Source: Thermoplasma volcanium GSS1 (GTDB lineage: Archaea; Thermoplasmatota; Thermoplasmata; Thermoplasmatales; Thermoplasmataceae). Taken from it: DNA of 64,000 bases. The stretch is from the NCBI RefSeq assembly GCF_000011185.1, contig NC_002689.2:372001-436000 (forward strand), written 5' to 3'. The notes beneath the pieces were generated by a model, which made no database searches, was not told the origin of the DNA, and saw only the letters and a list, made by a program, of their open reading frames with translations. This document shows, one piece after another, positions 2,738-9,372 of this stretch. Each line of letters starts with the position of its first letter. Position 1 is the stretch's first letter. The position numbers and the translations under genes were made by a program.

Positions 2738-3766
<1,029 letters not shown>

Positions 3767-3783: not shown

Positions 3784-3792
3784 ATTTATATA
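3784..3792 (+). promoter_or_regulatory. TATA box driving the structured leader and ABC transporter
   Basis: TTTATATA at about 3785-3792 is a near-perfect archaeal TATA element just after the hom stop codon. The usual 24-27 base offset puts the transcription start near 3812-3816, so about 115-125 bases of leader would precede the ABC transporter start. Confidence 0.6.
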
Positions 3793-3808
3793 TGCCCAAG
3801 GGATCGGG

Positions 3809-3930
3809 CGTATGCGGTGATAGCCCCGTGAAATGACTTGAAATACCGTGAGTGCAGCATCCAGGTATAAAAGCCTCGGCAAGTCCATTAGACCGCAGTC
3901 TCAGTGATCGGGGTCCCACTAGTGTATACG
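3809..3930 (+). ncRNA. Candidate structured RNA leader (possible riboswitch), unknown class
   Basis: The stretch is unusually GC-rich for this genome and folds by eye. CGTAT 3809-3813 pairs with ATACG 3926-3930; TGCGGT 3813-3818 with ACCGCA 3892-3897; GACTTG 3835-3840 with CAAGTC 3880-3885; ATACC 3843-3847 with GGTAT 3864-3868. CCCCG 3824-3828 can pair with CGGGG 3909-3913, crossing the second helix as a pseudoknot. It lacks the signatures of tRNA, 5S, SRP, RNase P or TPP-riboswitch RNA. Its position between a TATA box and a transporter start fits a regulatory leader. A free-standing small RNA is the alternative. Confidence 0.45.
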
Positions 3931-3931
3931 G

Positions 3932-4753
3932 GTGATCACTTTGGCAAAGGACCTGGTCAGAGAGTCTCAAATAGAAAAGCCGAGCAATTCAAGCTCAGTT
4001 TTAGAAGCAGCAAATATAGATTTTTCTTATGAGAACGGTTATAAAGTATTTGAAGACATAAATTTAAGCCTTAACCGAAATGAATTTGTAGCGATAGTAG
4101 GACCATCAGGAATAGGGAAATCAACCTTGTTGAGGATCCTGGGCGGATTTTTGAAGCCAGATAAAGGATCTGTCTATCTTATGGGGAAAAAAATAAACAG
4201 ACCAACACCAGACATAGTTTTGATACACCAGTCCATAGTTACTTTTCCGTGGATGACGGCTCTAGAAAATGTTATGGTATCCTTGAAAGCTAAGCACATC
4301 CCAAATGACAAGGCTGAAGAAATGGCAAAGGAAGCCTTAGAAACAGTTGGTCTCCAGGGGTTTGAAGACCTATATCCAAAGGAGATGAGTGGCGGCATGA
4401 GGCAGAGGGTTGCCATAGCAAGAGCACTAGCTGCTGATCCTTTGGTATTTCTTATGGATGAGCCTTTTGCCCATCTGGATGAGCTCACAGCGGAAGGCCT
4501 TAGGCAAGATATATATAACATACTCTTTAGTCCAGATACACCCCTGAAAGGCGTAGTGCTAGTGTCACACAATCTTACAGAAGTCATTGAACTCGCTGAT
4601 GTGATATATATATTGAACAACGTTCCGGCAACGGTTGTCGGCAAGGTTCAGGTTGATCTTCCAAGACCCAGGAGCCCAAGGAGCGAAGCGTTCAACCGGC
4701 TTCTTGACAGCCTCTATAATTACTTGACTCCACCGAAGGTGAAGAAGCCATGA
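3932..4753 (+). CDS. ABC transporter ATP-binding protein, nitrate/sulfonate/taurine (anion) type
   Basis: Cytoplasmic ATPase that would power the duplicated permease encoded next. The 273-residue protein has Walker A GPSGIGKST (57-65), the Q-loop region near HQSIV (99-103), signature SGGMRQ (153-158) and Walker B LVFLMDEP (171-178). The fold and partner place it in the NrtD/SsuB/TauB group. It overlaps the permease by 4 bases. The start is uncertain: the GTG at 3932 lies inside a good ribosome binding site (GGTGAT 3931-3936), so a TTG at 3941 is equally plausible. No substrate-binding protein gene is adjacent, so the substrate is unknown. Confidence 0.85.
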   Translation: MITLAKDLVRESQIEKPSNSSSVLEAANIDFSYENGYKVFEDINLSLNRNEFVAIVGPSGIGKSTLLRILGGFLKPDKGSVYLMGKKINRPTPDIVLIHQSIVTFPWMTALENVMVSLKAKHIPNDKAEEMAKEALETVGLQGFEDLYPKEMSGGMRQRVAIARALAADPLVFLMDEPFAHLDELTAEGLRQDIYNILFSPDTPLKGVVLVSHNLTEVIELADVIYILNNVPATVVGKVQVDLPRPRSPRSEAFNRLLDSLYNYLTPPKVKKP

Positions 4754-6375
4754 ATATGGTACTACTTATAATCCTTGCAACTCTTGCAACTGCGGGACGT
4801 GTACTTGGCCTAATATTAATATCTATTGTTACAGGGTGGTTTCTAGCATACCTAGCGATAAAGGGTAAGTTTTTTGAGAATATATACATCGCTCTGATAG
4901 AGGTCTTTGAATCAGTTCCTGTTATCTCTTTCTTCCCAATAGTCCTAATAATTTTTGTAACTCGTATAGGTGGCCCACTAGGAGTAGAGCTGGCTGCCGA
5001 TTTTCTTGTATTTACGGCTGTTGTATGGAATATCTGGATGGGTGAATACCAGGCCTTTAAAACCGTTCCAAAGGAGATGATAGAGGTTGCGGATAATTAT
5101 AGAATGTCATTTTTGTCCAGGATGGCGCGGATATATATACCCTTCTCATATCCGAGAATAGCTGCAAACCTTTTCCCAAGCGTATCAGATGGATTCTTTT
5201 ACATAACTGTAAGTGAAGTTTTTACAGTTGGCATTCATACTTATGCTACTTTTGGGATAGGTAGCGTGCTCGATAGTCTGGCCCCTACAGGCAAGACTAA
5301 TTATGTTTATCTTGCGCTTTTAGTGCTTGCAGTAGTCATAGGAGCTATTATTTACATTTTGCGCGAATTCAGCAGATACGTCGTATCAAAATATACCATC
5401 GATACGGACGCACCCATAATAAGGAGAGGAAGGTTAAGCGTAAAGCAAACAACAAGGATTCTTTCAGTAATAGCTACAAATCCACTTTCTCGCCTTGCAG
5501 GTTATTACAGATCAAGATACCCGGGTCAGAATTCAGAGGTGTTCGAGAAAGACGAATATCCTCAGAGAAAGATAGGAAGCTATGTGATGTCAGGTATAGG
5601 TATAATTATACTTATTTTGCTAGTTTACTCCGCTTATTCTGTGATATCAGCTACACCGACTGCACTATGGCACAAGCTCGTATCTATTACTCCAAGAATT
5701 GTTGTTTATCTCCTGTATGACTACGGCAGAGTAGCCACGATCCTCGTTGTATCTTTTATCATATCGATATTTCTTGGGTATTCCCTCGCAATACATACCA
5801 GAGCGGAGGGGATCGGAGTACCTTTGCTTCAGGTACTTAGCGCCTATCCTCCACCGATATATTTCCCGTTTGTGTTTGCGGCAAGCTATACCTGGATCCA
5901 CAATTTAATGGGCCCAGTAACTAACGAGTTTTTTGTTATAGGCCTTGGATTCATCAGCACATTTTATTACATGTTCTATTCCTTCTGGATGGGTGTTAAG
6001 GCATTGCCCTCGGAGTATTTCGAAGTGATGAAGAATCTCAATCTAGGTTTCTTCAAAAAGATGAGGATGATAATATTGCCAGGAACATTTCCGTACCTTA
6101 TATCCGGCATCTCTTCAACAATAAATAGCGCTTGGGGAGGACTTATGATCGGCGAGTACTGGCCGGATATAGTCGGTGATAAGACCCTACAGATCCACTA
6201 CGGCATAATGAAATTCATAGATATACAAACAGAAGCAGGAAATATAGCCTATGCTGGCTGGGCCTCTTTCATATTTGGAATTGTAGTTGTGATATATTCG
6301 ATACTATTTACACGGAGAATGATGGACTTAGCTAGAAAGAGGTACGTTGCTGAAGAAGGCCTATTCGCCGCCTAA
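4750..6375 (+). CDS. ABC transporter permease with two fused BPD-type domains
   Basis: A 541-residue integral membrane protein in which two permease halves are fused. Each half has about five to six hydrophobic segments and an EAA-like coupling loop: near residues 96-125 (before FLSRMARIYIPFSYPRI) and again near 418-450 (before FFKKMRMIILPGTFPYL). The duplication means one polypeptide supplies the whole membrane channel. This fits the archaeal duplicated anion permease family paired with NitT/TauT-type ATPases. ATGA overlap with the ATPase gene shows translational coupling. Substrate cannot be read from sequence. Confidence 0.85.
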   Translation: MNMVLLIILATLATAGRVLGLILISIVTGWFLAYLAIKGKFFENIYIALIEVFESVPVISFFPIVLIIFVTRIGGPLGVELAADFLVFTAVVWNIWMGEYQAFKTVPKEMIEVADNYRMSFLSRMARIYIPFSYPRIAANLFPSVSDGFFYITVSEVFTVGIHTYATFGIGSVLDSLAPTGKTNYVYLALLVLAVVIGAIIYILREFSRYVVSKYTIDTDAPIIRRGRLSVKQTTRILSVIATNPLSRLAGYYRSRYPGQNSEVFEKDEYPQRKIGSYVMSGIGIIILILLVYSAYSVISATPTALWHKLVSITPRIVVYLLYDYGRVATILVVSFIISIFLGYSLAIHTRAEGIGVPLLQVLSAYPPPIYFPFVFAASYTWIHNLMGPVTNEFFVIGLGFISTFYYMFYSFWMGVKALPSEYFEVMKNLNLGFFKKMRMIILPGTFPYLISGISSTINSAWGGLMIGEYWPDIVGDKTLQIHYGIMKFIDIQTEAGNIAYAGWASFIFGIVVVIYSILFTRRMMDLARKRYVAEEGLFAA

Positions 6376-8901: not shown

Positions 8902-9372
8902 TCAAGATACAACGCTAAAGCCATCATCGTCCTTTCTCAAGAGACCTGAGTACACACCCCATTCTATAAGTATAACTTCTAGGTCGTGCTTTCCAGAAGG
9001 AGAATTAAAAGTTTGTACTCCTTTTCTTTGTAGGTTTTCCATTAGTGTCTCGCAATCAAAGTTGCGGAGATCAAGTGCGGTTCGGAAAGGTTCAATATTC
9101 CTCAGAGCTTCTCTAATTATTTCCTTTCTCCTCTTTATGCTTGCCCTTATATATTCTTTGCCTTCTTCGGTTACTATTATGTCGCCGGATTCCGCGCTAA
9201 CAAAACCAAGTCTTGATGCGGTATATACTATAGGCATTAAATCATCAATATCCACTTCCATCTCTTTTTCAAGCTGGTAAAGGTCAGTTTTACCATCAAA
9301 TATATTATTCATGACATATAGAAGTCCAACTAGATCGGCTATCCTGGCGTTCGGATCAATTACTTCTGTCAT
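8902..9372 (-). CDS. Stand-alone AAA-associated C-terminal (AAA_assoc_C-like) domain protein
   Basis: A 156-residue protein matching from memory the domain often fused to the C-terminus of NitT/TauT-type ABC ATPases: a start with PNARIADLVGLLYVM, a winged-helix-like middle (DLYQLEKEMEVDIDDLMPIV) and a C-terminal segment ending in EVILIEWGVYSGLL. Here it is encoded alone, about 2.5 kb from an ABC transporter of exactly that type whose ATPase lacks the domain. It may regulate that transporter in trans. The link is inference from family habit and proximity. Confidence 0.65.
   Translation of the reverse strand: MTEVIDPNARIADLVGLLYVMNNIFDGKTDLYQLEKEMEVDIDDLMPIVYTASRLGFVSAESGDIIVTEEGKEYIRASIKRRKEIIREALRNIEPFRTALDLRNFDCETLMENLQRKGVQTFNSPSGKHDLEVILIEWGVYSGLLRKDDDGFSVVS

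Follow-up and report, generated by a model that had tools for sequence, protein, structure and literature searches.

The closest described counterparts of the RNA analyzed here are the leaders of l7ae genes, whose kink-turns are bound by L7Ae, controlling translation (PMC5539422, PMC6298567). In the l7ae leaders known so far, L7Ae acts as a repressor and the kink-turn lies beside or over the ribosome-binding site (PMC5539422, PMC6298567); their C-helices are also limited (PMC6298567). Metal ions alone do not fold box C/D kink-turns, whereas L7Ae does, and a U.U at 3b:3n in Kt-7 is associated with middling, not absent, ion-induced folding (PMC5689011).

The leader that we describe precedes an ABC transporter operon of Thermoplasma volcanium, in a stretch of 64,000 nucleotides that we call the window and from whose first letter positions are counted. 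It shares with l7ae leaders (Daume et al. 2017, PMC5539422; Huang, Ashraf and Lilley 2019, PMC6298567) a putative 5'-leader kink-turn beside the Shine-Dalgarno sequence, tandem G.A pairs, U at L3, little C-helix, an l7ae gene in the same genome and, as predicted here, conformational control of ribosome access. Unlike those leaders, it belongs to a transporter mRNA, has a long variable loop on the C side and contains a second conserved hairpin that competes, and its predicted kink-turn form would expose the ribosome-binding site. It is also similar to the box C/D (C'/D') kink-turns and k-loops of archaeal sRNAs, with UGA opposite RUGAU and U.U beside tandem G.A. In contrast to box C/D sRNAs, it is not a guide RNA, has one C/D-like pair, is embedded in an mRNA leader, carries G-C in place of C1-G6 and has a stem of 5 bp plus an extension. 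As in translational riboswitches with anti-Shine-Dalgarno competition, three segments compete for the ribosome-binding site; unlike such riboswitches, it has no recognizable aptamer and no Rfam family. To our knowledge, few cis-regulatory RNAs have been found in archaea, and we know of no natural activating kink-turn switch reported before.

A leader element shared by four genera

The leader lies between a homoserine dehydrogenase gene (2780-3766) and, on its other side, an operon of an ABC ATPase and a fused permease. The ATPase (3941-4753, plus strand) is NitT/TauT-like, and the permease (4750-6375, plus strand) is a two-module fusion of 541 aa. We revised the ATPase start to TTG 3941, directly 3' of the leader, by alignment with orthologs. 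The mechanically called start, GTG 3932, falls within the Shine-Dalgarno sequence GGGUGA (3930-3935, plus strand), which was itself recognized from the sequence and the ortholog alignment. The initial annotation had pointed to a GC-rich segment in AT-rich DNA, with a TATA box upstream and a transporter start directly downstream, and these observations hold: segment 3812-3933 has 51.6% G+C compared with 40.2% in the window, placing it at the 98.6th percentile of 122-base windows, and it stands between the TATA box TTTATATA (3785-3792, plus strand) and TTG 3941.

The promoter is tied to the element by a nearly constant spacing. From the TATA center to the first nucleotide of the conserved core the distance is 27 nt in T. 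volcanium and, as measured by script, 24-27 nt in 16 of the 17 leaders; in the remaining leader the script chose an upstream box, and by eye its TATA spacing fits too. Archaeal promoter spacing puts the start of transcription at, or within about 2 nt of, the 5' end of the core. On this spacing we predict a start at about 3814, where stem P1 begins, so that the element appears to be the 5' end of the mRNA. The 5' boundary first proposed, 3784, shifts to about 3814 for the predicted transcript. Between the TATA box and the predicted start, GGGATCGGGC (3799-3808) is conserved among the five Thermoplasma genomes only and repeats the GATCGGG of the leader core (3907-3913). If transcription starts near 3814, this sequence is DNA, perhaps an operator; with a start farther 5', its pairing with GCCCCG could provide a third alternative.

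Permease family members were matched in 73 of 101 relatives, and close orthologs (identity of 50% or more) in about half. The leaders of these close orthologs fall into two groups, with and without two shared blocks, GRNGAURRCCYCGUGA and RUGAUCGRGG. Both blocks are present in Thermoplasma, Ferroplasma (F. acidarmanus), Acidiplasma (A. aeolicum) and a Picrophilus-like genus that is probably Picrophilus, and both are absent from the close-ortholog leaders of other genera. A covariance model found the element in 18 genomes of these four genera of acid-loving archaea, one copy in each and always before the same ABC operon; one copy is truncated by a run of N, and 17 distinct leaders were compared. 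The same model gave no further convincing match over the order (117 genomes) and no convincing copy beyond the four genera in 400 genomes sampled from the class, where it returned three weak matches (E 0.003-0.045). A direct DNA search yielded convincing partial matches in three Thermoplasma genomes only and missed the other genera. On the permease tree, presence of the element has to change twice, which would fit either an ancestral element with losses or one that has moved.

That a structured RNA leads this transporter gene, as first suggested from one sequence, is thus borne out by conservation in 18 genomes. The accompanying view that it fits none of the familiar archaeal RNA classes (TPP, fluoride, SRP, RNase P, 5S) also stands: Rfam 15 assigned the T. 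volcanium leader to no family at strict (gathering) or permissive thresholds, the sole permissive match being a chance one (E = 5) outside the element, and Rfam matched none of four related leaders. We found no earlier description among the papers searched. Shared by four genera and missing from Rfam, the element is compact enough for biochemical work to begin at once.

Stem P1 and the predicted kink-turn

The shared blocks form the two strands of a stem, P1, with the consensus GRNGAURRCCYCG-UGA ... RUGAU-CGRGG. In T. volcanium its 5' strand (3810-3828, plus strand) consists of the core CCCCG (3824-3828) and an extension, and its 3' strand (3909-3920, plus strand) of the core CGGGG (3909-3913) and the extension CACU (3917-3920). 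The pairing of the two cores had been proposed in the initial annotation exactly as we find it, together with a covariance model across relatives and a search for compensatory changes. Over the 17 leaders the CCYCG/CGRGG pairs hold, with one outer mismatch in a Picrophilus-like leader, and the third pair varies between C-G, U-G and U-A yet stays paired. Identity between genera is 84% and 91% in the core blocks and 49% in the linker. On the model-fitted alignment, 92.3% of P1 cells are paired, compared with 43-70% when the partner strand is slid.

P1 extends outwards beyond a small internal loop. The extension pairs GGUG (3816-3819) with CACU (3917-3920) here, GGAGAUA with UAUUUUC in Ferroplasma, GUGACA with UGUCAC in the Picrophilus-like genome and CGGUGA with UCACUG in T. 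acidophilum; in T. volcanium only, GUAUGC (3810-3815) can also pair with GUGUAU (3922-3927). A hand alignment, which follows the structure and hence leans towards it, has two-sided changes at extension positions -3, -5 and -6. Swapping strands of the extension discriminated weakly (mean -5.9 kcal/mol within a genus and -5.0 across genera), making the extension weaker evidence than the core. A leader peptide, GTG-ATA-GCC-CCG-TGA (3817-3831 in Thermoplasma), was considered and rejected, as Acidiplasma and most Ferroplasma leaders have no start codon for it.

Little of the remaining fold is shared. The linker (3832-3903, plus strand) varies in length and sequence, with 73 nt between the paired strands in T. 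volcanium and 32-52 nt in relatives. Helices within it such as GACUUG 3835-3840 with CAAGUC 3880-3885 and AUACC 3843-3847 with GGUAU 3864-3868 are specific to T. volcanium. Of the multi-helix fold originally drawn, the core pairing is therefore conserved, but most of the structure within 3832-3902 belongs to the species. GAURR beside the core is partly conserved. Beyond P1 and the kink-turn core, the 17 leaders share no visible pocket.

In 17 of 17 leaders the core is flanked by invariant unpaired nucleotides, UGA following the first strand (3829-3831, plus strand) and UGAU preceding the second, the latter within GUGAU (RUGAU; 3904-3908, plus strand). With CCYCG/CGRGG as NC helix, UGA would be the non-bulged strand (3n, 2n, 1n) and RUGAU the bulged strand (L2, L3, 1b, 2b, 3b) of a kink-turn in which 3n:3b is U.U, 2n:2b is G.A, 1n:1b is A.G and L3 is U. 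Nucleotides for tandem G.A and A.G beside a Watson-Crick NC helix occur in all 17 leaders, and as judged from the sequence the invariant nucleotides match the box C/D kink-turn pattern recognized by L7Ae. A scan of both strands of the window for a 5-bp helix with at least four G-C pairs, followed by UGA ... RUGAU in kink-turn register, found this site alone, against 0.0 on average in 10 shuffles. All 14 motif-bearing leaders scanned have the arrangement, with a single occurrence apiece, and orthologous leaders lacking the motif do not have it. The C-helix after the 3-nt bulge is 0-2 bp long by inspection of the leader sequences, and this short helix is the weakest part of the assignment. A box C/D sRNA was tried as an explanation and rejected, as there is only one C/D-like pair, with GUGA instead of CUGA, a linker of 32-73 nt and a conserved mRNA context.

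This pattern of invariant positions suggests the protein L7Ae first, before a small-molecule pocket. The five-helix, pseudoknotted metabolite or ion aptamer imagined for the segment finds no support, since the fold is mostly unconserved and the invariant unpaired nucleotides correspond to a kink-turn. L7Ae is encoded by one PF01248 gene in each of five genomes searched. We did not find the motif before l7ae itself, whose own leader does not match the covariance model. The only PF01248 gene of T. volcanium lies at 437242-437514, about 1.2 kb past the end of the window and about 61 kb downstream of the leader.

The competing hairpin and its regulatory readings

A second hairpin, P2 (3903-3940, plus strand), comprises P2a, in which AGUGAU (3903-3908) pairs with AUCACU (3935-3940), and P2b, in which CACU (3917-3920) pairs with GGUG (3931-3934). 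Its counterpart in Ferroplasma pairs CCAUUAUGAU with AUCAUAAUGG and UCACC with GGUGA. P2 conceals the Shine-Dalgarno sequence together with the start codon or the bases immediately 5' of it. On the fitted alignment, 79.8% of P2 cells are paired, compared with 27-54% when slid. Two-sided changes affect five pairs and 11 cells, and the covariation score is reached by none of 500 shuffles; a MAFFT alignment that was not fitted to the model agrees. The hairpin is weak in T. acidophilum and in three relatives. UGAU and the anti-Shine-Dalgarno CACU are common to both structures, so the full P1/kink-turn and P2 are mutually exclusive. By themselves, the five core pairs could form alongside P2, and the result would be the pseudoknot of the initial annotation. 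The pairing of 3824-3828 with 3909-3913 is real, but it is a pseudoknot only if it coexists with P2a, and it can be understood at least as well as a simple hairpin stem in competition with P2a.

Folding energy relative to shuffles was unremarkable (z = -1.14 for 3796-3945 and +0.58 for 3811-3945), and the comparison with relatives therefore had to decide. In ensemble energies, the P1 and non-P1 forms lie within about 2 kcal/mol of each other in Ferroplasma (except F_L076) and in two of three Acidiplasma leaders; for Thermoplasma and the Picrophilus-like leaders, P1 is strongly favored even without protein.

The reading that we favor, tentatively and at slightly less than an even chance, is that the leader acts in cis as a translational switch, with a kink-turn binder, of which L7Ae is the likeliest, stabilizing P1 and freeing the ribosome-binding site. 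The transcript would begin near 3814 with the 5' strand of P1, and P1 would close the variable loop and bear the box C/D-type kink-turn (UGA/RUGAU) at its loop-side end. Together they would use up CACU 3917-3920 and UGAU 3905-3908, leaving the ribosome-binding site and start codon open. When P1 is unformed, UGAU would pair with AUCA just before the start codon (P2a), CACU would pair with GGUG of the Shine-Dalgarno sequence (P2b), and translation would be off. L7Ae, as the most likely regulator, would stabilize P1 and so favor translation. Several points argue against this model: known L7Ae leader kink-turns repress and do not activate; the C-helix is minimal and P2 is weak in some species; the P1 extension discriminates weakly between genera; U.U at 3b:3n leaves some ion-induced folding in Kt-7; and the Thermoplasma and Picrophilus-like leaders are predicted to favor P1 strongly on their own.

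It is possible, if rather doubtful, that the leader represents a riboregulator class new in archaea, in which L7Ae or a ligand on the leader kink-turn turns transporter translation on, the kink-turn form outcompeting the conserved hairpin over the Shine-Dalgarno sequence and start codon. Such a switch would have no natural activating precedent that we know of and would connect membrane transport with a protein of ribosomes and C/D RNPs. If L7Ae binds, transport would join the C/D-RNP genes as a target of control by leader kink-turns, with a sign probably opposite to that of l7ae autoregulation.

The sign might be reversed: L7Ae or another kink-turn binder on P1 might instead repress by blocking the ribosome, an unlikely outcome in our judgment. 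It would agree with the repression seen in l7ae autoregulatory leaders (PMC5539422, PMC6298567), and here about 10 nt separate the end of P1 from the Shine-Dalgarno sequence, a gap that is shorter in some Ferroplasma leaders. However, the strands of P1 and the kink-turn include the segments that otherwise conceal the Shine-Dalgarno sequence and start codon, so a stabilized P1 should expose the start site.

A small-molecule or ion riboswitch seems to us just as improbable as repression, and less likely than a switch worked by a kink-turn protein, because outside the kink-turn stem we see nothing conserved that resembles a pocket. On this reading, P1 or the internal loop between core and extension would bind a ligand, which might be the transported anion, and the binding would shift the balance between P1 and P2, leaving the kink-turn, or the pseudoknot with P2a, as a mere scaffold. 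The gene encodes an importer, GAURR is partly conserved, the core pairs could form a pseudoknot with P2, and the P2 pairing supports an expression platform; competition by an anti-Shine-Dalgarno segment is a classic platform of riboswitches, and kink-turns are found in many of them. Against this, no Rfam class was matched, the unconserved loop of 32-73 nt means that no multi-helix pocket is held in common, and the kink-turn fully accounts for the invariant unpaired bases. Should a ligand turn out to bind instead, its identity could show what this transporter family carries.

That the blocks are half-sites of a DNA operator, bound by a transcription factor close to the promoter, is very improbable. 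The first block does keep a fixed distance of 24-27 nt from the TATA box, and CGGGG with the complement of CCYCG makes an inverted repeat, but the block spacings (32, 35, 36, 38, 43, 45, 48, 52 or 73) have no helical periodicity, P2 extends into the start codon, and the changes seen in P1 and P2 preserve RNA pairing, also as G-U, which would be meaningless for DNA binding. Least probable of all is an RNA thermometer or simple stability element without a dedicated binder, which the nearly isoenergetic P1 and P2 of Ferroplasma and most Acidiplasma leaders would suit but which leaves the invariant non-paired UGA/RUGAU unexplained and is at odds with a balance of the two folds that differs strongly between genera.

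Gene neighborhood

Compared between genera, the gene neighbors of the element differ except for the ATPase, the permease and an AAA_assoc_C protein (PF09821), and we therefore name no substrate from gene context. The AAA_assoc_C gene is directly downstream of the permease gene in most relatives examined; here it lies apart from it and inverted (8902-9372, minus strand). Because of its position in the other genera, the protein is probably part of the transporter system. Elsewhere in the window, at 394-2267, an AAA ATPase gene adjoins an ESCRT-III-like Snf7 gene (PF03357), an adjacency that we take to be expected for an archaeal Cdv-type division pair. The two genes are likewise adjacent in the T. 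acidophilum neighborhood.
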